A stretch of 42,522 nucleotides of DNA from positions 1 to 42,522 of IMG/VR virus record IMGVR_UViG_3300045284_000301. One strand, 5' to 3'. Shown piece after piece: positions 7,337-26,765 of this stretch. The stretch's first letter is position 1. Each line of letters begins with the position of its first letter. The stretch is from a virus. The position numbers were made by a program, and so were the translations under genes. The notes under the pieces were generated by a model. That model was given only the letters and a program-made list of their open reading frames with translations, was not told the origin of the DNA and made no database searches.

Positions 7337-7615
7337 CTATCCGAAGGAGTCGAGAGGTTCTGAAATATCACCTTCGATATTTGGATCAACGACTTTCACA
7401 TAAAGACCGAGAATATTTTCTTTCACGATCTCGTCAATCGCAAACTCAATGGCTCTTTCTTGATCCGGCTCTGACAATTCATCAGAACTGTTGACGATCC
7501 TAGCCAGGAAGGAGGTGGTGTGGTAACCAGCGCGGGTGTCAAAGTTGTACCAATCCTGGAAGTGAGTGAAAGGATTGTAAGGATTGTCAACTGTTGATAG
7601 CATGACACTAGCCAT
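7337..7615 (-). CDS. Conserved phage protein, 92 aa
   Basis: Start ATG with AAAGGAGAAG upstream. The sequence opens ASVMLSTVDNPYNPFTHFQDWYNFD and continues YHTTSFLARIVNSSDELSEPDQERAIEFAIDEIVKEN. I recall close matches next to terminase genes in other phages of Gram-positive bacteria, always without function. It has no membrane segment and is acidic in its second half. It lies between the RNA polymerase homologue and the packaging genes. Confidence 0.75.
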   Translation of the reverse strand: MASVMLSTVDNPYNPFTHFQDWYNFDTRAGYHTTSFLARIVNSSDELSEPDQERAIEFAIDEIVKENILGLYVKVVDPNIEGDISEPLDSFG

Positions 7616-7635: not shown

Positions 7636-10320
7636 CTAAGCTTTGACATTTGTATCAAGAGTTGTCATAGACACACCAAAGTAATCAGCTACTTGCTTCC
7701 TTGTATAGCCAGATGCAAGCATAGCCTTTGCTCTGTTGAGCTTGGATGTACTAAGCTTCTTACTACTGGTGGGTGTAGCCAACTCACGAACACTCTTTGG
7801 ATCTGCGTGTAGAAGGATCTTCTCTAGACGGCTAGGGCTAATAGCACCGGCCTGAATAGCATTCCATTCTTCTTGACTGATCTGGATGCGCTTCTTACTA
7901 GCACCCGTTCTGTTACGAGACTCGGCCAAAGCGATGTTCTTCACCTTCTTCAGTGTTGCTTCATCCATGTTAGGATCAGCATCACGCTTAGCCTTGATCT
8001 GGGTGGACGCAAAGATCTGGGCTTGTCTTTCGAGGGGGGCGTTTCTTTCAGCCACCTTCAATGAATTGGAGAGGGACCTAACTTCTTTGGCATAGGCCTT
8101 TGCAGCATCGGGGTTGTATGAAGACTTTGGTGTTTGCAAAGCCTCTTTCCTAGCCTGGTTTGCTAGATCCTTCAATCGATTCGAATGGTCAGCATAGATG
8201 GCTTCGACTCTGGTACCTGATGAAAGAGTATGGGCATCATCTGTCAGATCCAGTTTCTTAACCTTCTGGGTTACGAGTTTGCCGTTTCTCATTCTACCCG
8301 TATCTACAAACACCCGTTTTCCAGTTGCCGGGTCTATTGGGCCGCCTTCTATTCTACTCCTGGGCTCTCTTTGAGGTATAACTTTCTTTGCGCCAGCTCT
8401 AGAAATTAAAGTAACTGCTCCGATATTTGCGCTTCCTTGATACCTCTTTTTGAGGTTGGAAATTCCGTTGTCAATATATGACTGTTTGTAATTGAGCTTG
8501 TGCTTTTCAGCATCAATAACAACCATCGAATGACGAACGGCAGCGGCAAGATGTTCTGGTGGAGCACCGATAATGGTCATGTCCGTAATGAGATTTGCAA
8601 TCTTTCCCATTTCGGTTTGTGTTTGTATCTTTGACATTGGAACCATTCCTGGATATCCAGCATACGATTCCTTAGGATTGAACTCCTTCAATCCATCCAA
8701 AGATTTTGCTGTTTTGACCCTTCCAGAATCATTCGGAATAACGAGAACATGATCGCCATCGAAGTCCGCTCCAGAAAGCTTTTCAGCAACGCTATGGTGA
8801 ATGCCAATGGCATCAACTGGAGAATTTCCAAGCGATCGCTTTGCCTCACGATTGCTGTTGTCAACAATCAATTCTGGAATTTCAAATGGTCCACTGTGTG
8901 GATGGCGAACAAGGACAACTCGCGTTCCATCTGGATAGTTCGGTGCATATACATGAGTCGGAGGCAAACTGTTTATCGGCAATATGATGCTTGTCGACTG
9001 ACGAGGAAGACTAGCACCTTTCAACTGAACAGCCGCAGAATCAGTAGCACCAGCGAACTTCATCAATAGATCTTTCTTGACTGTTGGATTTGTCAAGGCA
9101 GATATCTCTTTGAAGTTGTTGATTCGCTCCTCATAGGTCATGTCCAATTGCGACTTGATCAGTTGAGGATTCTGCTTTGAAAGCATTTGCGAAGAAAGAG
9201 TATTTGACCATTTCTCCCAATCGCCTTCTTCATTGACAATGTTCATAGCAGATATGCCTGTTTGCTTACCGTTTGCGTCTCGAAGTGGATGCTGACGAAT
9301 GATTGCACCAAACGGATTGATCGAATTTGCCGTATCCTCAGATATGGGCTTCATCGCATCAAGTTTGTTTCCAGTGTCCTTCTTGTTTGTGTTGAACTGC
9401 AAATCAACACCAGGTGGGAGATCATCTTTGTACATGGCCATACCTTTGAGGTAGTGACCTTCTCCAACCTTTACTCGAACCTGAGCATAGTTCTTTCCGC
9501 CAAGAGAAAGATCTTCTACACCAGGACGAATATAAATGACACCATCAGCTGCGGCACCACCTTCTGGTCCATACTTGATGCCAACTCTTTTTGGATCCAC
9601 AGAGACAGGCGGTACGACTTTGAGCATTGACTCGCCACCATCTTCAGAAAATGATCCCACTTGCTGAATTTCATGACGATTCAGAAACACTTCTCTTTGC
9701 GTGGTTCCTGGAGCAGCAAGAACTTTGCCTTTTGTGTTGTGTTCTGTTGTGACTTGAGGAATCGGAACTTCATGAACCACATAACCCTGTTCCTGAAGAA
9801 CTGCAATTCCACCATCAAGACGAGTTCGAGCGATGCCCATTTGATGTTCAACGCCTTTACCAACATCGACGTACTTCTTTTCAGCAACAGCTTCTTTCAA
9901 TGTTCTTGCTGTCGTCTGAATAACGTCTTCTTGGTGCTTTTCTCCATTTGCCAACAAGCCACGAACATATGACTCGTTTCTTCCCAACTGTCTTGCAATT
10001 GCAGAAGTGGAAACTCCCTTTTGCTTCTCTCTCCATGCAAAAGCATAATTGGCCGCAGTGAGCTCAGCTTTTGCGCTTGACATCTTTGCTCGAAGTTGAG
10101 ATGTCGATTTATAGCCAAGTCCTTTTGCAATATCAGGATCGCTGATTCCCTTTTTACGAAGGTTGTTCACGTGATCGTTGAAGTGCATGTTTCGAGGAAG
10201 TTGAAAATCAGGATCGCTCTCTTTGGCTGTTGCAATGTCTTGGCCTGACCCCCAAGGATATCGGCCGCTGTGACGAGGTGTTCCGTAATGAGCCAGATAA
10301 TCTGCTTCTTTGATAATCAT
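7636..10320 (-). CDS. Single-chain multisubunit-type RNA polymerase homologue (YonO-like)
   Basis: 894 residues. The catalytic Mg-binding motif of the beta-prime double-psi barrel is present as GADFDGDH at residues 517-524. It is preceded by PDGTRVVLVRHPHSGPFEIPEL at about 463-483, which matches the NRxPTLH-type approach strand. The beta-like barrel is probably the KGMAMYKDDLPPGVDLQFNTNK region near 292-313. Two helix-turn-helix-like segments lie near 51-80 and 98-125, and one ends the protein (RKQVADYFGVSMTTLD). The N-terminus bears HYGTPRHSGRYPWGSG at 11-26. YonO of phage SPbeta is a proven single-chain polymerase of this class. I infer that this protein transcribes phage genes. It starts at the stop of the nuclease gene and could be virion-packaged. 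Confidence 0.82.
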   Translation of the reverse strand: MIIKEADYLAHYGTPRHSGRYPWGSGQDIATAKESDPDFQLPRNMHFNDHVNNLRKKGISDPDIAKGLGYKSTSQLRAKMSSAKAELTAANYAFAWREKQKGVSTSAIARQLGRNESYVRGLLANGEKHQEDVIQTTARTLKEAVAEKKYVDVGKGVEHQMGIARTRLDGGIAVLQEQGYVVHEVPIPQVTTEHNTKGKVLAAPGTTQREVFLNRHEIQQVGSFSEDGGESMLKVVPPVSVDPKRVGIKYGPEGGAAADGVIYIRPGVEDLSLGGKNYAQVRVKVGEGHYLKGMAMYKDDLPPGVDLQFNTNKKDTGNKLDAMKPISEDTANSINPFGAIIRQHPLRDANGKQTGISAMNIVNEEGDWEKWSNTLSSQMLSKQNPQLIKSQLDMTYEERINNFKEISALTNPTVKKDLLMKFAGATDSAAVQLKGASLPRQSTSIILPINSLPPTHVYAPNYPDGTRVVLVRHPHSGPFEIPELIVDNSNREAKRSLGNSPVDAIGIHHSVAEKLSGADFDGDHVLVIPNDSGRVKTAKSLDGLKEFNPKESYAGYPGMVPMSKIQTQTEMGKIANLITDMTIIGAPPEHLAAAVRHSMVVIDAEKHKLNYKQSYIDNGISNLKKRYQGSANIGAVTLISRAGAKKVIPQREPRSRIEGGPIDPATGKRVFVDTGRMRNGKLVTQKVKKLDLTDDAHTLSSGTRVEAIYADHSNRLKDLANQARKEALQTPKSSYNPDAAKAYAKEVRSLSNSLKVAERNAPLERQAQIFASTQIKAKRDADPNMDEATLKKVKNIALAESRNRTGASKKRIQISQEEWNAIQAGAISPSRLEKILLHADPKSVRELATPTSSKKLSTSKLNRAKAMLASGYTRKQVADYFGVSMTTLDTNVKA

Positions 10321-10874
10321 TACATGTCCTCCTTCATCATCTCGATTTTCCGATCGAACACGACAATCTTGTGCATGATTCGCATGATGTCGTCTCCGTC
10401 TGGAATATAGGTTCTCACTTCATCGCTCTGATAGATCCTAAGTTCCACAGCGATCTCGAACGGTGAGATACCATACTCCAAACAGAATAAGGCCGCATAA
10501 ACCATGAGTTGCTTTTCGGAAGTTCTAGAGATTCCGGTCTTCAGATCGTGGATTCTCAAAGTTCCTCTACGAAAGCTAATCGTGTCTGCTGTACCAAAAC
10601 AGTTGTCGGAGTAATATAGCACTTGCTCTACATTCATTCTGTAGCCAATTGCATCTGTTACATACATCGCCAATGTTTTGTCGGCCCTTGAAAGTTTGAC
10701 TCCTAAGCGAATTGCTTGATGAGCCAGTGCATGAAGCGCAGTTCCTCTTGCTGCGGCTTGTGAAAGATGCCAACGAAGTTCAAGCTTGTCATCATCGTAG
10801 TTAATCCAATGATAATTGCTTGGACTCAGAAAGGCATGTCTACCTTCGATTGCTGAGTGCGAGTTGAAGTTCAT
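10320..10874 (-). CDS. PD-(D/E)XK nuclease (Cas4/RecB-like)
   Basis: 184 residues from the ATG at 10872-10874, overlapping the upstream VRR-NUC gene by 35 bp. The nuclease core is clear: His48 in GTALHALAH, Asp97 in NCFGTADTISF, and Asp110-Leu-Lys112 in IHDLKTG, followed by QLMVYAALFCLEYG, the usual QxxxY motif. This is the Cas4/RecB-like exonuclease pattern. A role in phage recombination, DNA end processing or host DNA breakdown is plausible. An upstream ATG at 10973 would add 33 residues with no homology and lie deep in the previous gene, so I prefer this start. Confidence 0.85.
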   Translation of the reverse strand: MNFNSHSAIEGRHAFLSPSNYHWINYDDDKLELRWHLSQAAARGTALHALAHQAIRLGVKLSRADKTLAMYVTDAIGYRMNVEQVLYYSDNCFGTADTISFRRGTLRIHDLKTGISRTSEKQLMVYAALFCLEYGISPFEIAVELRIYQSDEVRTYIPDGDDIMRIMHKIVVFDRKIEMMKEDM

Positions 10875-11136
10875 TGAAAACCTGCTCTTCATTCTCAGGA
10901 TATACGAAACTGGCATAAGACAGATCATTGAACTTGTCAATGAAATATCCCTGATTCGGTCGCTCTGGTGCATCGATGGACGCTTTCACTTCCAACATGG
11001 CCCAAGCTCTTCCGTTTAGAATAAAGAGATCAGGAATTCCTTGCATGTAGTCTGGATCTTGTTTGATTACCAGACAACCAGGAAATTCCTCCTTCAATCT
11101 TCGGATGATTCGTGTTTGGTAGACGCTTTCTCTCAT
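10840..11136 (-). CDS. VRR-NUC domain nuclease
   Basis: 98 residues, the usual size of stand-alone phage VRR-NUC proteins. Catalytic positions are Asp36 (QGIPDLFIL) and Glu49-Val-Lys51 (AMLEVKAS), with Gln/Asp contacts in IKQDPDYMQG. The family belongs to the PD-(D/E)XK nucleases and acts on branched DNA or flaps. It is encoded between the NUMOD4 gene and a Cas4-like nuclease, beside the SF2 helicase, so a recombination or replication role is likely. Confidence 0.88.
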   Translation of the reverse strand: MRESVYQTRIIRRLKEEFPGCLVIKQDPDYMQGIPDLFILNGRAWAMLEVKASIDAPERPNQGYFIDKFNDLSYASFVYPENEEQVFNELQLALSNRR

Positions 11137-11193
11137 GCAGCCCCCAAAAAATAGAAGATGATCTTCTCTCCGTTACACTACCGGTTTTTTTCG

Positions 11194-11218
11194 CTATGTA
11201 GTACGGTTTCATACATAG
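11194..11218 (-). repeat. Hairpin at the end of the NUMOD4 gene
   Basis: CTATGTA pairs with TACATAG around an 11-base loop. The 15 bases at 11196-11210 reappear in opposite orientation at 11830-11844 (GAAACCGTACTACAT), so the NUMOD4 gene is flanked by short inverted copies. On the minus strand a run of seven A follows, not T, so it is not a classical terminator. Confidence 0.6.
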
Positions 11219-11901: not shown

Positions 11902-13071
11902 TTAGAGGTTTTTACGTGCCCAATCCCTCTCGTTAAACATCTCTTTGCGGCTCAGAGAGTTCCAAACTGCCAGGTCAGGCACACTTTTTGATCTCAACAC
12001 GTAGTAATACAGATCGGTGAACGGCGTGTCCAATCTGTCGATTCTACCGTGTGCTTGCATGTGATTTTTGTAAGAATACGTCAAAGAGTAGAAAATCATG
12101 GTGTCTGTGACGGTACAATTCCATGCTTCGGCCCCAGCGACGTACTGAACCAGATATACCCAACTTTCAGTGGTCGGAATTGGCGTTTTTCGGTGTCCAT
12201 TTAGTTCTCCCACAAAAATCACGTGAGATTTCACGTATTCCAGACCCCTCAAGATGGCCAATTCGTAGTCAAAATTGTAAAAGATTACGACTCTGGGATG
12301 GGTCTCCATGATCTCCAAAATGGCCTCAAATCGGCTCCGATCGCTGTTTACGATCCTCCGCATGACCCTGAACAATTCCGCCACATCTTTGATGGGTTCG
12401 TTGGAATATGGGTTCCATCTCTTCACCAGAGCCGTTTTCAATAGCTCAGTGTCGTAATCAACCCACACAGTCTCTTCAATCCGCCTCGTATGACGAATAT
12501 AAGGCATCTCCACCAAAAGCATGTTGCGGTACTTCTCGAGTGTCTGCTCCCCATTGAACCGCACAATCTTCGGGAATTTAGAGAACGGCGCATACACCAC
12601 ATGTTCTCGGACGAACTGCGTCCTGTTCCTGTACAAGTTGTTCGCAATGAACACAGGCACGTAGTCCATCCAAGAATCGCCAGGCGTAGCAGTGAGCATC
12701 ACCCAGTTGTTGTTCTTGGCGATCTTGAGAAATGACTTGACCCATACACCGCTTCCTACGAGTCGTTGTTCATCGAATATGAAGAAGGCGTCCTCGACTT
12801 CGATGTACTTACCAATGTTGTTCCAGGAATCAACAACAAGCAGTCCTTCAAGCGTGACTTCAGTTCCGATGCCATACGCAACTGCTTCTTTTTCCCACTC
12901 AAGACTATCACGCTTCTTGGCTGTTGTGATGACATAAATGTCCTTTGGCCTTTCTCGTTTCATGTAATATGCCATGACGGTGGCAGACTTCCCAGCACCA
13001 ACGCCTCCATAGAGGATCTTGCCATTGCTGAGGTTCTCTACCGCTTCGAGTTGGTGTTCCATTAACTGCAT
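11902..13071 (-). CDS. SF2 helicase (DEAD/SNF2-like)
   Basis: 389 residues from the ATG at 13069-13071, chosen over an upstream ATG because GGAGG lies 6 bp before it. Motifs: Walker A YGGVGAGKSA at 21-30, Walker B IFDEQR at 98-103 (DEQR in place of DEAD/H), motif III TATP at 127-130, and motif VI HMQAHGRIDR near the C-terminus. This is an ATP-driven DNA helicase or translocase. Phage versions are paired with VRR-NUC and help initiate replication or recombination. Both the VRR-NUC and a Cas4-like nuclease are encoded just downstream. Confidence 0.9.
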   Translation of the reverse strand: MQLMEHQLEAVENLSNGKILYGGVGAGKSATVMAYYMKRERPKDIYVITTAKKRDSLEWEKEAVAYGIGTEVTLEGLLVVDSWNNIGKYIEVEDAFFIFDEQRLVGSGVWVKSFLKIAKNNNWVMLTATPGDSWMDYVPVFIANNLYRNRTQFVREHVVYAPFSKFPKIVRFNGEQTLEKYRNMLLVEMPYIRHTRRIEETVWVDYDTELLKTALVKRWNPYSNEPIKDVAELFRVMRRIVNSDRSRFEAILEIMETHPRVVIFYNFDYELAILRGLEYVKSHVIFVGELNGHRKTPIPTTESWVYLVQYVAGAEAWNCTVTDTMIFYSLTYSYKNHMQAHGRIDRLDTPFTDLYYYVLRSKSVPDLAVWNSLSRKEMFNERDWARKNL

Positions 13072-13086
13072 TAAGCCCTCCAAAGG

Positions 13087-13114
13087 CAAAAAAGACAATC
13101 CATGTAGGACTGTC
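13087..13114 (-). terminator. Intrinsic terminator before the SF2 helicase
   Basis: On the minus strand GGACTGTC's partner strands (13094-13101 and 13107-13114) form an 8-bp stem with one G-U pair and a 5-base loop, followed by TTTTTT. It would end the transcript of the small membrane protein gene upstream. Confidence 0.7.
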
Positions 13115-13125
13115 CTTTTAGTAGA

Positions 13126-13311
13126 TTATTCACTGCACGTGGCATTGATGAATCCGGTCTTCTTGTAGAATCGACGATCTTTCCAGTTCCGAACTGCGGC
13201 TGTTGCTGCTGTGATTGTCACTGAGAGTGCTAGTCCAATGACGACCACCGCACCAGCATGAGCAGCTGTGAACTCAGATCCATCGTCAAACGTCTTGATT
13301 GTGGGGTTCAT
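13126..13311 (-). CDS. Small single-pass membrane protein, 61 aa
   Basis: Start ATG at 13309-13311 with AAGGAGAAAG upstream. One membrane span (AGAVVVIGLALSVTITAATAAV), then a basic cytoplasmic-type end (RNWKDRRFYKK). It is directly preceded by a copy of the repeated TTCGCA-N14-TGTAAT element and followed by a terminator, so it looks like a self-contained transcription unit. I do not recognise the family. Confidence 0.7.
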   Translation of the reverse strand: MNPTIKTFDDGSEFTAAHAGAVVVIGLALSVTITAATAAVRNWKDRRFYKKTGFINATCSE

Positions 13312-13335: not shown

Positions 13336-13365
13336 TTCCATTACAATGCGTGTAAGAAATGCGAA
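13336..13365 (-). promoter_or_regulatory. Repeated TTCGCA-N14-TGTAATGGAA element, copy A
   Basis: On the minus strand: TTCGCA, 14 bases, TGTAATGGAA, then AAGGAG and the ATG of the 61-residue membrane protein. The plus strand shows the dyad TTACA-ATGCG-TGTAA. It is one of seven copies with identical spacing and is read as a promoter with a possible operator. Confidence 0.7.
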
Positions 13366-13406: not shown

Positions 13407-13643
13407 TCAGTGTTTCTCGTTCAACTGCATGACGCGGCGATCGATCCGAACCTGGATACCGTTCTCGATGTGGTCGTGCTCATCCTGCAAACGCTGCATC
13501 AAGTCATTGTAGATCGCGCTGCCTGCTCCGTAGAGTTTGGCATACGCTTTCTCGGTCCTGATGAAGTTGTCCTTAAGACGATCACGGCTCGTAATCAGAG
13601 CGGTGTAGATTGGGTCGGTCATGATGTACATGATGTTGTCCAT
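13407..13643 (-). CDS. Hypothetical soluble protein, 78 aa
   Basis: Start ATG at 13641-13643, with AAGGAGTAAAC upstream and element copy B before that. The longer upstream frame would run through the element and a hairpin, so it is rejected. The product is helical and charged (TDPIYTALITSRDRLKDNFIRTEKAYAKLYG, then a coiled-coil-like DLMQRLQDEHDHIENG). It is the one clearly soluble product among the genes preceded by the repeated element. Function unknown. Confidence 0.7.
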   Translation of the reverse strand: MDNIMYIMTDPIYTALITSRDRLKDNFIRTEKAYAKLYGAGSAIYNDLMQRLQDEHDHIENGIQVRIDRRVMQLNEKH

Positions 13644-13663: not shown

Positions 13664-13693
13664 TTCCATTACAGTGGGTGTAAATTATGCGAA
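13664..13693 (-). promoter_or_regulatory. Repeated TTCGCA-N14-TGTAATGGAA element, copy B
   Basis: Same layout as copy A, with the perfect dyad TTACA-GTGGG-TGTAA. It is placed 20 bp before the start of the 78-residue gene, with AAGGAG between. Confidence 0.7.
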
Positions 13694-15257: not shown

Positions 15258-15460
15258 ATACAGGTAGCTACTCCTGCATAAGTGCTGTGTGTCCTTCACA
15301 GATCATGATGGGCAATGAAATATCAACTCCGCACCGGGTAGGAAGAGATTGGCAGTTGAGTCTCCATTGATTACTTCGAATAAACGCTAGGTCTGGCCGT
15401 CCCCTGACTTCGCTACTATTCGACCCATCCGCTCTGAGCCTAAGACCTGTTTAACGTCGC
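15258..15460. other. Noncoding stretch, no gene seen
   Basis: No frame with a ribosome site on either strand. It contains a near-palindrome CAGGTAGCTACTCCTG (about 15261-15277) and an unstructured middle. I looked for a tRNA in both orientations and found no clover-leaf. It may hold a promoter or a small RNA. Confidence 0.4.
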
Positions 15461-15718
15461 TCAGACGACGGTGTTTGGAATGGCAGTAACATTCAAGCCA
15501 CTCGTTGCCTCTTCGATTGGTCCTGCAAAAGTTGTCAAAAGTCCGCCAAACCACTCTGGAAGATGCACTTCTATAACGGAAGTGAGCTCGAATTTTTCGT
15601 CGCCAAGGACAAAAGTCATGGTGGCAGTCCCATCTTGATTGTCGATGAGATGCACTTCTCGAAGAGATTCGGCGATCAATCGTGCCATTTCTTCTGGTGT
15701 TTCTGGCATGTTTTCCAT
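15461..15718 (-). CDS. Hypothetical protein, 85 aa
   Basis: ATG with AAAGGAGAATCACC upstream. The N-terminus is helical (PEEMARLIAESLREVHLIDNQDG), followed by a beta-rich part (TATMTFVLGDEKFELTSVIEVHLPEWFGGLLT). No membrane span or enzyme motif. It follows the 114-residue gene by 18 bp and lies at the end of the replication operon. Not recognised. Confidence 0.65.
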   Translation of the reverse strand: MENMPETPEEMARLIAESLREVHLIDNQDGTATMTFVLGDEKFELTSVIEVHLPEWFGGLLTTFAGPIEEATSGLNVTAIPNTVV

Positions 15719-22195: not shown

Positions 22196-23050
22196 CTAGA
22201 TCAAGTCGTAGACTTGGCCATCGACATTGAAGTCGAGAATGATGCTGACTTCGTAACCGTTGACAAAATTGGCGTTGCCGGCTTCGTAGATACCGAAATC
22301 GACGAAGTTGTCACCGTTGTCACGAACCCAACCGACAATCTGACCTTGCGGCGTTCTCGGAATATCGAGGAGATCGTACGCCTCATTCAAGAAGACGTGA
22401 CCTCTCGAGTGAAGAAGATGGTTGCAGTAGTTCTGCTGAGCCTGGATGAACAGACGGTTCGCTTCGCCAGTCTTCTTCCAGTTGACATTCGACTCATCGA
22501 ACATCTTGGCGTACGGAGACCATCTGTTTGGATCTGCTCGCTTGAATTTCTCGAGCTTCCCACCTCTGCCGATCTGTTCAACCTCGATCGCATGGTAGAA
22601 CTCGAGTTCCTTCTCTTCTCCGAGCTCGTTTCGAACACGCTCACGATACGCGTCGTAGCTGGCCTGCAAAGCAGAATATCCAGCACTCAAGGCCGCATAG
22701 CGATTGTTCTGAATTCCACGAGATTTTGTGAGGCATCCGATTGATGCAACGCCGATGATCATTGCCGGCGCATACAACTTGACGATCTTGTAGGTCCCGT
22801 GAATATAGACCCTCATCATGGCCTTGTCGTGATCGAACTCGTGAGCATTTTCTTTGTGTTCGACTTGATCAACGTCCTTTTGAATTTCGTCAAGCGTCTT
22901 CTCGAGCTTCAATGTTGCACGACACGCCAACACTGTTGACGCAATCGATCCAACGATTCCGGCGACCATCAAAATGCCTGGCGCATTCTTTTGGACAACC
23001 AGCGTTTTCCTTCCGGCAAACCGGGTCACTCCTGCTGGAATGAATTTCAT
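22196..23050 (-). CDS. Membrane protein, DUF6353-like, 284 aa
   Basis: AAGGAG precedes the ATG. Two or three membrane segments (APGILMVAGIVGSIASTVLACRA and VKLYAPAMIIGVASIGCLT), then a helical region (ALSAGYSALQASYDAYRERVRNELGEEKELEFYHAIE) and a C-terminal soluble domain. It shares this plan with the 243-residue protein at 24.7-25.5 kb, including the AYxxYRxxVxxELGExKE stretch, so the two look paralogous. I recall the family as DUF6353 (from memory). It probably sits in the host membrane during infection. Confidence 0.75.
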   Translation of the reverse strand: MKFIPAGVTRFAGRKTLVVQKNAPGILMVAGIVGSIASTVLACRATLKLEKTLDEIQKDVDQVEHKENAHEFDHDKAMMRVYIHGTYKIVKLYAPAMIIGVASIGCLTKSRGIQNNRYAALSAGYSALQASYDAYRERVRNELGEEKELEFYHAIEVEQIGRGGKLEKFKRADPNRWSPYAKMFDESNVNWKKTGEANRLFIQAQQNYCNHLLHSRGHVFLNEAYDLLDIPRTPQGQIVGWVRDNGDNFVDFGIYEAGNANFVNGYEVSIILDFNVDGQVYDLI

Positions 23051-24333: not shown

Positions 24334-24537
24334 TTACTTCTCGGTTTCGACGAGGTGGATGACCTTGGACTTGCGGGCCTTGTTCCATGCGTACACGCTC
24401 TTCCCGACGTTCCAGCTGAGTTGGGCGGCGGTGAGTGCAACACCAATTACGGTGGCATACCCAACCGCTGTTTCCAGCTTGGTCGAGGACGAGACGGTCT
24501 GCGTGGGCAGGACTTCAATACCTTCGGTGGCTTCCAT
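24334..24537 (-). CDS. Small single-pass membrane protein, 67 aa
   Basis: Starts at ATG 24535-24537 with AAGGAGAAAACA upstream. An N-terminal soluble stretch, then one span (VGYATVIGVALTAAQLSWNVG) and a basic end (WNKARKSKVIH). Preceded by element copy C and followed by the 24275 terminator, so it is a unit of its own. Family not recognised. The topology resembles the 61-residue protein at 13.1 kb. Confidence 0.7.
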   Translation of the reverse strand: MEATEGIEVLPTQTVSSSTKLETAVGYATVIGVALTAAQLSWNVGKSVYAWNKARKSKVIHLVETEK

Positions 24538-24742
24538 TTGTTTTCTCCTTATGAGGTGGGCTTCCATTACAGTCCTTGTTTTTTCTGCGAACCACAGGTT
24601 CTCTGCGACCTGGAAATACGCCGCAATGATCTGGATTCAACAAAAGGAAGTTATTCGCCCGTTCGAGGATCAAGAATAGAGTCATCACCTCCCTCTCGTA
24701 CTCTTGATCCCCGGGGCCAGATCTCCATTGTGACACGCTCAT
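24515..24742 (-). CDS. Probable small protein, 75 aa, coupled to the membrane protein upstream
   Basis: Its ATG (24740-24742) overlaps the stop of the 243-residue membrane protein as ATGA. Residues 12-42 (DQEYEREVMTLFLILERANNFLLLNPDHCG) look like a genuine helical segment. An internal ATG has a strong GGGAGGTG before it. The 3' half runs through element copy C and looks less protein-like, so the real coding part may be short. Moderate support. Confidence 0.45.
   Translation of the reverse strand: MSVSQWRSGPGDQEYEREVMTLFLILERANNFLLLNPDHCGVFPGRREPVVRRKNKDCNGSPPHKEKTNGSHRRY
24562..24591 (-). promoter_or_regulatory. Repeated TTCGCA-N14-TGTAATGGAA element, copy C
   Basis: TTCGCA, 14 bases ending in AAGGAC, TGTAATGGAA. 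Located 25 bp before the ATG of the 67-residue membrane protein, with a ribosome site between. Confidence 0.7.
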
Positions 24743-25473
24743 CAGAATGGTCTGACATAGTTGTAGTCAAACACCAAACACGGCCTCCCATCCTCCGTGA
24801 TCGATGTCGAGAACTGTAGGTACATCATCTTGTCACAGTCCCAACCGGTTCTGGACGAATATGACGTAGTCGGAAGTCCAACCATGTAGTAGAAGTCGCT
24901 TAAGGTTGCTTCCACCTCTCGAATGAGCTTGGAGTTGATCCTGTTCTCGGCTCGACGGAGAGTTTCCATGTCGCAGTTGAAATATCGACCCGTGTGCATC
25001 TCTTGGCAGAGCACACTTCCTGCACCAACCACAATAGCCCCTGGCTGATTCTCATTAACGTGGTCTTGTGCGATTTCATCGCGGATTGCCTTCTCCTTCT
25101 TTTCTCCGAGTTCCTCAACCACCTTCGTCTTGTATTCATCAAAGGCACGTTCGGTAACGGCGAGGACAGAATATGCCGCAGCAGTCTTCTTCATGCCGAT
25201 CCTTGCGCCAGTGATGATTGAGCCAATCGTGAGAGTGGCCGAGATCGCTGTTGGAATATAGTGCTTCCAAACGAGCTTAACCTTCTCCTTCTTGGTCAAC
25301 GGATTGTCAGCAACAAGGTTCTCAAGGCGAATATGCTCACCTGCCTTGAATGATGCCTTGGCTGAGAAGTATGTCGTGGCCAACACACCACTCACACCGA
25401 TTGATGTGAATATGGCTGGCGAGTTTGCTCGAACGGTCTTCTCGAGCGTATGTGTGAGCTGTTGCAGCTTCAT
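24742..25473 (-). CDS. Membrane protein, DUF6353-like paralogue, 243 aa
   Basis: Starts at ATG 25471-25473, overlapping the stop of the 38-residue gene. Membrane segments near residues 18-38 (SPAIFTSIGVSGVLATTYFSA) and 72-92 (YIPTAISATLTIGSIITGARI), then EYKTKVVEELGEKKEKAIRDEIAQD and a C-terminal domain with GSVLCQEMHTGRYFNCDMETLRRAENRIN and DFYYMVGLPTTSYSSRTGWDCD. The plan repeats that of the 284-residue protein at 22.2 kb. An upstream start is rejected because it lies inside the overlapping small gene. Function unknown. Confidence 0.75.
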   Translation of the reverse strand: MKLQQLTHTLEKTVRANSPAIFTSIGVSGVLATTYFSAKASFKAGEHIRLENLVADNPLTKKEKVKLVWKHYIPTAISATLTIGSIITGARIGMKKTAAAYSVLAVTERAFDEYKTKVVEELGEKKEKAIRDEIAQDHVNENQPGAIVVGAGSVLCQEMHTGRYFNCDMETLRRAENRINSKLIREVEATLSDFYYMVGLPTTSYSSRTGWDCDKMMYLQFSTSITEDGRPCLVFDYNYVRPF

Positions 25474-25586
25474 CGGCGACGCATCTCTCGAACGAATATC
25501 CAGATGAGCCAGAACCCACACGTGATCAGGGTCATGAAGACGTCGAAGATGAACCGAATTGGTCCATACCTTCTACGAATAGACAT
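25470..25586 (-). CDS. Small membrane protein, 38 aa
   Basis: ATG 25584-25586 with AAAAGGAGAC upstream. MSIRRRYGPIRFIFDVF, then a hydrophobic span (MTLITCGFWLIWIFV) and REMRRR at the end. Basic ends around a Trp/Phe-rich span. The RRRYGPIR start is one I recall in other phages of Actinobacteria. The stop overlaps the next start. Confidence 0.75.
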   Translation of the reverse strand: MSIRRRYGPIRFIFDVFMTLITCGFWLIWIFVREMRRR

Positions 25587-25687
25587 AATGTCTCCTTTTG
25601 GTTGAGTGAAAAATGAAAAAGGAAGTTCCTGCAATTCGACGTATCCGTCCGGGTACAGGTTTCAAGCGGCTCTCCAAATCCGCTTCC
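25587..25687 (-). promoter_or_regulatory. Structured leader between element D and the 38-aa gene
   Basis: About 100 bases. It holds a hairpin AAGCGG/CCGCTT (about 25662-25683) and, nearer the gene, the palindrome AGGAACTTCCT followed on the minus strand by TTTTT (about 25615-25630), which looks like an early terminator or attenuator. No ORF. Other element copies lie within 40 bp of their genes, so this longer leader stands out. Confidence 0.5.
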
Positions 25688-25717
25688 TTCCATTAGAATC
25701 CCTGTTTTTTCTGCGAA
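25688..25717 (-). promoter_or_regulatory. Repeated TTCGCA-N14-TGTAATGGAA element, copy D
   Basis: TTCGCA, 14 bases ending in ACAGGGAT, then TCTAATGGAA (one change, C for G). It precedes the leader and operon of the 38-residue and 243-residue membrane proteins. Confidence 0.65.
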
Positions 25718-25720
25718 GTG

Positions 25721-25753
25721 AAAGCCATAACCCTTGCGGGGTCAGAGGGCTTT
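25721..25753 (-). terminator. Terminator hairpin upstream of element copy D
   Basis: AAAGCC/GGCTTT outer stem with an inner ACCC/GGGT stem, following the 61-residue gene and running into element D. Confidence 0.65.
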
Positions 25754-25756
25754 GGA

Positions 25757-25942
25757 TCACATTCCTTTGGGGTAACGCGTCCTGAACTCGACTTGCCGAG
25801 CGTAGGCACGACGACTTTGCATGGCGCTCAGTGTGTCCAACACCTTTGCAGCTGCGATTGCTGCTCCAGTGCCGACTGCGATGACTGCCATGGGGTTTTC
25901 GTTCCATGCCTTCTTCAGCTTGTCTTTCCAAGTGCTGTTCAT
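25757..25942 (-). CDS. Small membrane protein, 61 aa
   Basis: ATG with AGGAGGAAGTA upstream. MNSTWKDKLKKAWNENP, then a short Ala-rich span (MAVIAVGTGAAIAAAKVLDTL), then a basic tail. It is a full cassette: element E upstream, terminator downstream. The KKAWNENPMAVIA start resembles a common group of tiny actinophage membrane proteins. Function unknown. Confidence 0.75.
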   Translation of the reverse strand: MNSTWKDKLKKAWNENPMAVIAVGTGAAIAAAKVLDTLSAMQSRRAYARQVEFRTRYPKGM

Positions 25943-25963
25943 TACTTCCTCCTGTTAGTGGGC

Positions 25964-25993
25964 TTCCATTACAGTCCCTGAAAATCATGCGAA
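25964..25993 (-). promoter_or_regulatory. Repeated TTCGCA-N14-TGTAATGGAA element, copy E
   Basis: TTCGCA, 14 bases ending in CAGGGAC, TGTAATGGAA, then GCCCAC and AGGAGG before the 61-residue gene. Confidence 0.7.
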
Positions 25994-26026
25994 AAGCCAT
26001 AACCCTTGTTATAGGGTTAGAGGGCT
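25992..26026 (-). terminator. Terminator hairpin upstream of element copy E
   Basis: AGCC/GGCT outer stem and AACCC/GGGTT inner stem, then TTTT that forms the first bases of element E. Nearly the same sequence as the hairpins at 24275 and 25721. Confidence 0.7.
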
Positions 26027-26032
26027 GTTGGA

Positions 26033-26242
26033 TCATGACTGAGTAAATCCAGTCATTGCGATCTTGTAGACGGCGGCTAGTGCTCCTAGAGCGAAAGCGA
26101 CCTTTCCAGTCTCCCGGATGATAGTCGTGGCAACGGCCTGCACTGCGGCAGTCGTTTCCTGAATATCTCTCGTCGGTTGACTCGAAGGAGTCTCTTCCTT
26201 CTTCGGCTTCACAACCTTCATCTCGATTGATCTCCTGAACAT
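26033..26242 (-). CDS. Small membrane protein, 69 aa
   Basis: ATG 26240-26242 with AAAGGAAATC upstream. A basic start (MFRRSIEMKVVKPKKEE), a Thr/Gln-rich middle, and one C-terminal span (VAFALGALAAVYKIAMTGF). It lies between element F and the terminator before element E. Earlier in-frame starts would include element F and are rejected. Not recognised. Confidence 0.7.
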   Translation of the reverse strand: MFRRSIEMKVVKPKKEETPSSQPTRDIQETTAAVQAVATTIIRETGKVAFALGALAAVYKIAMTGFTQS

Positions 26243-26260
26243 GATTTCCTTTCGGGTTGA

Positions 26261-26290
26261 TTCCATTACAATCCCTGTAATTTTTGCGCC
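26261..26290 (-). promoter_or_regulatory. Repeated element, copy F (GGCGCA variant)
   Basis: GGCGCA instead of TTCGCA, 14 bases ending in ACAGGGAT, TGTAATGGAA. The plus strand gives the perfect dyad TTACA-ATCCC-TGTAA. Directly upstream of the 69-residue gene. Confidence 0.65.
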
Positions 26291-26329
26291 CGATTTCTGG
26301 AATTTTCCCCCCGGGGAATTTTTAGGGTG

Positions 26330-26370
26330 AAAAAATGAAAGCCGCTGTAAAAAAGGCGAAAGCGTACAGC
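26330..26370 (-). terminator. Terminator after the 95-aa membrane protein gene
   Basis: GCTGTA (26344-26349) pairs with TACAGC (26365-26370) around a loop, and a T-rich tail ending in TTTTTT follows on the minus strand. A second GC stem (CCCC/GGGG, about 26305-26318) lies just beyond, before element F. Confidence 0.6.
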
Positions 26371-26428
26371 ACATGTTTCTTTCACATATGCTGCACACTT
26401 ATCACCTTCGAATTGATGGCGACTTCGG

Positions 26429-26716
26429 TTATCGCGGCTTGATCACGTTCCCAAACGCTTTCGACGTCCATACGTGCCTCTGCTCGTACGCAACGATGAT
26501 CACAATACCCAAGAGATTCCCGAGGACGAGAAGTACCGTGTCCGGATTTATCCCTTTACGATCTTTCGATCCTTTGAGGGCATAAAGCCGTTCAAGATGC
26601 TTCAATGTCTGCTTGAACTCTGGGGAGTCTGTGTACTTCATCTCTTGCATTTCAACGCAGAGTTGGTATGTCAGTTCATCCAGCTTTTGGTCTGATCTCC
26701 GTGCTCTTCCGAACAT
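26429..26716 (-). CDS. Membrane-anchored protein, 95 aa
   Basis: ATG with AAAGGATACTCG upstream and element G before it. Residues 8-50 form a charged helix (DQKLDELTYQLCVEMQEMKYTDSPEFKQTLKHLERLY), followed by one span (DTVLLVLGNLLGIVIIVAYEQ) and a basic tail ending GNVIKPR. I recall similar proteins in several phages of Gram-positive bacteria, with no function given. Confidence 0.75.
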   Translation of the reverse strand: MFGRARRSDQKLDELTYQLCVEMQEMKYTDSPEFKQTLKHLERLYALKGSKDRKGINPDTVLLVLGNLLGIVIIVAYEQRHVWTSKAFGNVIKPR

Positions 26717-26735
26717 CGAGTATCCTTTCTGTAGG

Positions 26736-26765
26736 TTCCATTACAATCCCTGTATTACTTGCGAA
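26736..26765 (-). promoter_or_regulatory. Repeated TTCGCA-N14-TGTAATGGAA element, copy G
   Basis: TTCGCA, 14 bases ending in ACAGGGAT, TGTAATGGAA, 20 bp before the 95-residue gene. The copy overlaps the last codons of the upstream gene, with a small AACCT/AGGTT hairpin beside it. Confidence 0.7.

Follow-up and report, generated by a model that had tools for sequence, protein, structure and literature searches.

A rigid intergenic element that looks like a promoter in phages with a single-chain YonO-like RNA polymerase

Promoters of the T7 type have an AT-rich melting stretch that is followed at once by a purine start (TATA, then GGGAGA). The middle promoters of T4 combine a TATAAT-like hexamer with a displaced upstream box, and MotA and AsiA replace the -35 contact there. 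The two-barrel polymerases of phage P23-45 have their own classes of motifs, which track the enzyme in relatives (PMC10770324). The promoter sequence of YonO, the polymerase of SPbeta, has been stated as not known (PMC5467207). The virus record IMGVR_UViG_3300045284_000301, analysed here over its whole length of 42,522 bases (the window), encodes a YonO-like single-chain RNA polymerase and carries seven copies of an intergenic element, TTCGCA-N14-TGTAATGGAA. Elements with the same rigid layout are found in hundreds of phages with a single-chain polymerase. They resemble promoters, of a kind not described before, and are strong candidates for the signals at which this little-understood enzyme starts transcription. 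The probability that the element is a promoter of a phage-encoded system, most likely that of the YonO-like polymerase, is put at about 0.6.

By its features the element would join a known kind, the promoters of phage-encoded polymerases, while its own form is apparently new. Like T7-type single-subunit promoters it is about 25-30 base pairs (bp) long, highly conserved and phage-specific, and a purine stands right after an AT-rich stretch (TATAAT, then GAGA). Its sequence is unrelated to theirs, however, and the candidate enzyme here is a two-barrel protein (RDR/YonO) and not T7-like. With T4 middle promoters it shares a TATAAT-like hexamer and an upstream box, but its apparent start is directly after the hexamer and hexamer position 2 is free. 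The vRNAP and nvRNAP promoters of P23-45 resemble it in having two-barrel enzymes, a motif before early genes and a presence in relatives that tracks the polymerase; they belong to other phages and enzymes, and their link is backed by chromatin immunoprecipitation sequencing (ChIP-seq) and cappable-seq, while here it comes from sequence alone (PMC10770324). The SPbeta promoter upstream of yonK also goes with a YonO-like polymerase and has a non-coding RNA at its start site, but it is a single late operon promoter (PMC5467207). Repeated intergenic motifs before small actinophage genes include SAS/ESAS of cluster K mycobacteriophages and the repeats of Microbacterium phages (PMC7302621); the element differs from them in sequence and placement, and it crosses host phyla. 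No prior description of it was found in the open literature, in a search that did not reach the original papers on phage 1706 (2008) and ReqiPepy6.

Copies in the window and in other phages

The seven copies in the window far exceed the number expected by chance. With up to three mismatches allowed, 0.43 copies are expected, and none of 100 shuffles reached seven. As the original prediction stated, all of the copies are on the minus strand, which is the gene strand, and the spacer is exactly 14 bp in each. A profile in which every phage counts equally picks out precisely these seven sites, at 25-34 bits, and the next best site scores 7.5 bits. Other details of the prediction apply to only some of the copies. 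The first box and the hexamer are shared by most of them, but the copy at 25688 has TCTAATGGAA (hexamer TCTAAT) and the one at 26261 has GGCGCA. The inner block ACAGGGA is exact at 25688, 26261 and 26736, is present as CAGGGA at 25964, and is weaker in the remaining copies. Six copies lie 22-28 nucleotides (nt) before a start codon that has a Shine-Dalgarno sequence, as described, while the 25688 copy precedes a short non-coding RNA with a terminator. The downstream genes were said to encode mostly membrane proteins, and five of the seven small proteins do have a clear hydrophobic stretch. A leader peptide starting at the ATG within TGTAATGG was rejected because frames and stops disagree among the copies.

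The window element is a local variant of a putative promoter family, TCGCA-N4-(T/A)(T/A)ACA-N5-TATAATGAGA. The motifs of relatives were found without a prior motif, from 8- and 10-mers over-represented in each genome. Blocks repeated in the small-gene region are ATGAGACCCC in RosaAsantewaa, GGGCTATAAT in Mudcat, CTTTAATAGA and CTATAGTAGA in JoyLin, TATAATGAGA in ReqiPepy6 and Tanis, CTATAGTAGA in Lactococcus phage 1706, and CCCTATAATG in P078. When aligned they form one element, TCGCA-N4-(T/A)(T/A)ACA-N5-TNTAATGA, with a weaker TCGCA box in the Lactococcus phages. This element is present in 36 of 37 genomes, comprising phages of Streptomyces, Arthrobacter, Gordonia, Rhodococcus, Curtobacterium, Microbacterium and Lactococcus as well as metagenomic ones. 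There are 2-22 copies per genome, on a single strand throughout except for one site, and the profile has no matches in the reversed or complemented sequence of the genomes examined. The element precedes small genes and is kept in relatives at the same genomic places, which supports the proposal of a promoter shared by scattered small genes and, within what sequence can tell, answers the doubt that the motif might not be conserved.

The spacing of the element is rigid, and its distribution follows that of the polymerase. The pattern TCGCA-N4-TTACA-N5-TATAATGA occurs in at least 120 stretches among 2.9 million viral contigs, and the window-type variant in 13; the control patterns with a spacer one base too long (N5 for N4 in the main pattern) have 0 and 1 matches, respectively. 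In 84,980 cellular genomes (257 Gb) the main pattern is found in 16 stretches, several of which are phage contigs with many copies. The polymerase family, phrog_4291, is present in five of 15 cellular genomes tested, and it is encoded by 24 of the 25 motif contigs of at least 42 kb. The other one, contig G019, was rejected as a carrier without polymerase, as the whole polymerase-to-portal segment is missing from it. A BLAST search with the 37-bp consensus against 50,697 phage records retrieved 228 records (Arthrobacter 95, Gordonia 55, Streptomyces 54, Rhodococcus 4), and the genus counts are nearly those of the records bearing the polymerase. The phages that carry the element are those that encode phrog_4291. 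The suggestion that the phage's own YonO-like enzyme reads the element is supported as the most likely one.

Layout of the element and the apparent transcript start

The conserved positions fall into two boxes and a hexamer. Conservation was computed over 34 genomes, masking one position at a time so that the measure is not circular. Highest is the C of ACA (1.00), followed by T1, T3 and T6 of the hexamer (0.96-0.97) and CGC (0.92-0.95). Within the hexamer, position 2 varies most. It reaches 0.76, against 0.89-0.97 at the other five, and A, C, G and T are mixed there in some single genomes. Among 313 sites, a hairpin with a T-run lies directly upstream at 40%, versus 6% of random positions, and a ribosome site with a start codon follows at 79%, versus 25%. 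The median distance from hexamer to start codon is 26 nt. The layout is that of predicted small promoter-gene-terminator units.

A function other than that of a promoter seems extremely improbable. The element could be a repressor operator, which the partial dyad in three of the copies would fit, or it could act in translation at gene starts, as SAS/ESAS do, which would fit its position just upstream of ribosome sites. The dyad TTACA-N5-TGTAA had been reported for several copies and is exact only in those at 13336, 13664 and 26261. It looks palindromic because the lineage of the window carries TGTAAT; most relatives have TTACA-N5-TATAAT with identical spacing and no dyad. The operator was therefore rejected, together with the proposal of an operator overlapping a promoter, and in the light of the relatives the dyad is an accident of the lineage. 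As for translation, the element ends a median of 26 nt from the start codon without overlapping the ribosome site, and some copies stand before tRNAs and non-coding RNAs, which are not translated. The translational element was rejected for its wrong placement.

Sites without a following gene suggest where transcription begins. Across all DNA collected there are 948 distinct sites, 285 of them without a following gene start, and in these the 3' stem of the downstream terminator can pair with the bases that come right behind the hexamer. For 7-mers that begin at offsets -2 to +4, counted from the end of the hexamer, such pairing is found at 30, 31, 26, 28, 19, 15 and 8 non-coding sites, compared with 4.3 to 0.5 sites in swapped controls and 0-1 coding sites. 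Little pairing is seen from offset +5 onwards, and from -4 upstream none exceeds the control. In four cases a tRNA or tRNA-like gene follows the hexamer at a distance of 2-8 nt. The copy at 25688 is predicted to drive an RNA of about 75 nt, whose closing stem GGAAG/CTTCC starts at 25691, directly behind the hexamer; a fold begun 3 nt later is not significant (z -1.1). From these data the transcript start is inferred to lie directly after the hexamer, to within a few bases. If it were about 7 nt downstream, as for sigma-70, the bases paired with the terminator would stay untranscribed.

Two kinds of transcript recur under the same element. One is a non-coding RNA with the core GAGACACGAATGTGTAGG-loop-CCTACC and a TTTTCGTTGGGC-like stretch, found at L020 15315, L021 20090, L110 1461, L132 3249, L210 9511, L235 11458 and L280 890; the L020 copy has no Rfam match at that position. 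The other is tRNA-like, without an encoded CCA and in some cases with an abnormal anticodon loop, and its acceptor stem doubles as the terminator stem (L123, L173, L312 and L027 19554).

Judged by these features, the element is not a sigma-A promoter. In 37 genomes the motif sites match a TTGACA-like -35 box at 16-18 bp no better than random positions do, and an extended -10 (TGn) is found at only 12 of 315 sites. The A at -11, which sigma-A needs more than any other base and which corresponds to hexamer position 2, is present in none of the seven window copies, all of which have G or C, and terminator pairing and tRNA starts place the apparent start too close to the hexamer. A sigma-A promoter was rejected on these grounds. 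The original prediction that the promoter is not of the sigma-70 type is supported. Its argument that a 14-bp spacer is too short has been superseded: with an apparent transcript start right behind it, the hexamer seems not to be a -10 at all. Plain early host promoters with an unusual layout lacking the -35 box are very improbable. They would explain the TATAAT-like hexamer and the position before small genes, which is typical of early host-takeover genes, but not the rigid non-sigma boxes common to Lactococcus and Streptomyces phages or the near absence of the pattern from cellular genomes. Canonical sigma-A promoters are not enriched in the 37 genomes: the gene strand has 115, against 96 on the opposite strand and 127 in shuffled sequence.

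The YonO-like polymerase as the probable reader

By family and predicted fold, the 894-residue product is a YonO-like two-barrel RNA polymerase, with the DxDGD motif and two barrels in one chain, and the earlier naming of the enzyme was correct as a family assignment. It matches phrog_4291 over its full length (E=0), and DFDGD is invariant in 27 aligned sequences. An AlphaFold2 model of modest quality (pLDDT 75) is nearest to the plant RDR2 two-barrel polymerases (E 6e-5), and helix-turn-helix matches (Pfam) lie near both ends. The polymerase is carried by 250 phage records, where its labels include 'helix-turn-helix DNA-binding domain protein', 'RNA-dependent RNA polymerase' and, in KF594188, 'tail fiber protein'.

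The operon of the polymerase has a weak copy of its own. In all eight relatives examined, one further and weaker site stands just ahead of the VRR-nuclease/exonuclease/polymerase operon, in most cases with a hairpin and a T-rich stretch right behind it. The corresponding eighth element of the window, which the original prediction missed, has the TGTAA hexamer variant of the window followed by AGAAGATCATCTTCTATTTTTT. Its identification rests on synteny because its profile score is low.

The proposed promoter is about 30 bp long, with two recognition boxes (CGC and ACA) one helical turn apart and an AT-rich hexamer, TNTAAT. Transcription would start at a purine immediately after the hexamer, placing the boxes at about -24 and about -13 and the hexamer at -6 to -1. 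The polymerase is encoded by every near-complete carrier, and its terminal helix-turn-helix domains could supply the DNA specificity. The element would drive small RNAs and single small genes, often with a terminator upstream that sets them apart, and the operon of the polymerase would be under the weak copy and then the attenuator-like hairpin. The polymerase homologue of Lactococcus phage 1706, orf75, was deposited as a 'structural protein' and is likewise cited in the ReqiPepy6 record. The first genes need an enzyme that is there from the outset. Because of this deposit, and because no sigma-A promoters are detectable, it is suggested that the polymerase may be carried in the virion, enter with the DNA and read the elements early. 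A wider proposal is tentative and put clearly below an even chance. It is that phages of Actinobacteria and Firmicutes share a sigma-independent system, in which a virion-borne, single-chain two-barrel polymerase with its own helix-turn-helix domains enters with the DNA and starts early genes and small RNAs at TCGC-ACA-TATAAT followed by GAGA, controls its own operon through a weak copy and an attenuator, and tolerates hexamer changes specific to a lineage (TGTAAT here).

Several observations weigh against the YonO-like polymerase as the reader. A repeated, strand-specific and rigid motif upstream of phage genes, confined to polymerase-bearing phages, is what was found, but the co-occurrence is confounded by common descent, since prim-pol, helicase and phrog_2152 are also common to these phages. 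In Faecalibacterium phage FP_oengus, which encodes the polymerase, the only site is weak and lies upstream of the polymerase operon. The terminator pairing also runs 2-3 bases into the hexamer, so that the start is known only within a few bases. In roughly half of the genomes every site has A at hexamer position 2, and host sigma-A with an activator is possible there. YonO of SPbeta transcribes late genes (PMC5467207), and a scan of the SPbeta late-promoter region for the element gave nothing above 10 bits. Finally, a second strand-specific motif, TCAAAATGG(G/A)A, is found in late regions (144 observed versus 16 expected in the 37 genomes). It is often at start codons, and in one gene it is explained by the conserved peptide SKWE. 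This candidate late element could be the site of the polymerase instead of the TCGCA element.

Some of these points would fit a host polymerase with sigma-A that reads the hexamer as a -10, with a phage activator on the TCGCA/TTACA boxes replacing the -35 contact and the YonO-like enzyme left for late genes, perhaps from TCAAAATGG. The hexamer is TATAAT at most sites, the upstream box is roughly at the position of the MotA box, YonO is itself a late polymerase, the late-region motif exists, and a weak copy stands before the polymerase operon, as a delayed gene might have. This arrangement is nevertheless unlikely. Sigma-A should not tolerate the G or C at position 2 in all seven window copies or the mixed bases in other genomes, and the start suggested by RNA pairing lies nearer to the hexamer than it should, by about 6 nt. 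A gene for such an activator is not known, and the activator would itself need a promoter at time zero, while none of the sigma-A type is detectable. Another phage protein working with host core polymerase, such as an unrecognised sigma-like factor, is distinctly improbable. Candidates are phrog_4303, 4282, 4079, 4678 and 4695, which are conserved in most carriers, and the phrog_4303 gene follows the polymerase gene in the genomes examined; PHROGs gave no sigma-like match, and the apparent start geometry is unlike that of known sigma factors.

Promoters of the YonO-like polymerase would be of wider use. YonO-like enzymes are regarded as related to the ancestor from which all multi-subunit RNA polymerases descend. 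Since the rigid consensus occurs in cultured phages (of Lactococcus, Streptomyces, Arthrobacter and Gordonia), the question can be tested directly in laboratory strains. The consensus would also help to re-annotate roughly 250 phage proteins whose present names are 'helix-turn-helix protein' or 'RNA-dependent RNA polymerase', and it could yield an orthogonal transcription system for actinobacteria.

Features and neighbouring genes

Table 1. Putative promoter elements and associated features of the window (aa, amino acids).
Feature	Position	Strand	Remarks
Promoter element copy 1 (TTCGCAAGTAATACAGGGATTGTAATGGAA)	26736..26765	-	precedes 95-aa membrane protein gene 26429-26716
Promoter element copy 2 (GGCGCAAAAATTACAGGGATTGTAATGGAA)	26261..26290	-	precedes 69-aa gene 26033-26242
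Promoter element copy 3	25964..25993	-	right after terminator hairpin 26000-26019; precedes 61-aa gene 25757-25942
Promoter element copy 4 (hexamer TCTAAT)	25688..25717	-	precedes non-coding RNA
Predicted non-coding RNA of copy 4, about 75 nt	25616..25691	-	fold -26.5 kcal/mol from 25691; ends in T-run
Promoter element copy 5	24562..24591	-	precedes 67-aa gene 24334-24537
Promoter element copy 6	13664..13693	-	precedes 78-aa gene 13407-13643
Promoter element copy 7	13336..13365	-	precedes 61-aa membrane protein gene 13126-13311 and helicase 11902-13098
Degenerate eighth element (TAGCGAAAAAAACCGGTAGTGTAACGGAG)	11168..11196	-	upstream of RNA polymerase operon; 4.2 bits, third-best after the seven; identified by synteny
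Terminator-like hairpin and T-run	11146..11171	-	right after eighth element; possible attenuator
VRR-Nuc endonuclease	10840..11136	-	phrog_93; first gene of RNA polymerase operon
Cas4-like exonuclease of operon	10320..10973	-	phrog_3953
YonO-like single-chain RNA polymerase, 894 aa	7636..10320	-	phrog_4291; DFDGD motif; proposed reader of element
Small conserved protein beside polymerase	7337..7615	-	phrog_4303; possible accessory factor
TCAAAATGG motif	about 39676 and about 34202	-	also in L024, L017, L019, G046-G048

The genes of the window are nearly all on the minus strand. The order is terminase, portal, capsid and tail genes, then the small-gene region, and then prim-pol, helicase and the VRR-nuclease/exonuclease/polymerase operon. 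Two paralogous phrog_2152 proteins of unknown function are encoded in and beside the small-gene region (22196-23050 and 24742-25521, minus strand), and they are kept in nearly all relatives. A Pistol self-cleaving ribozyme at 15398-15470 on the minus strand scores 41.1 bits (gathering score 34.5).

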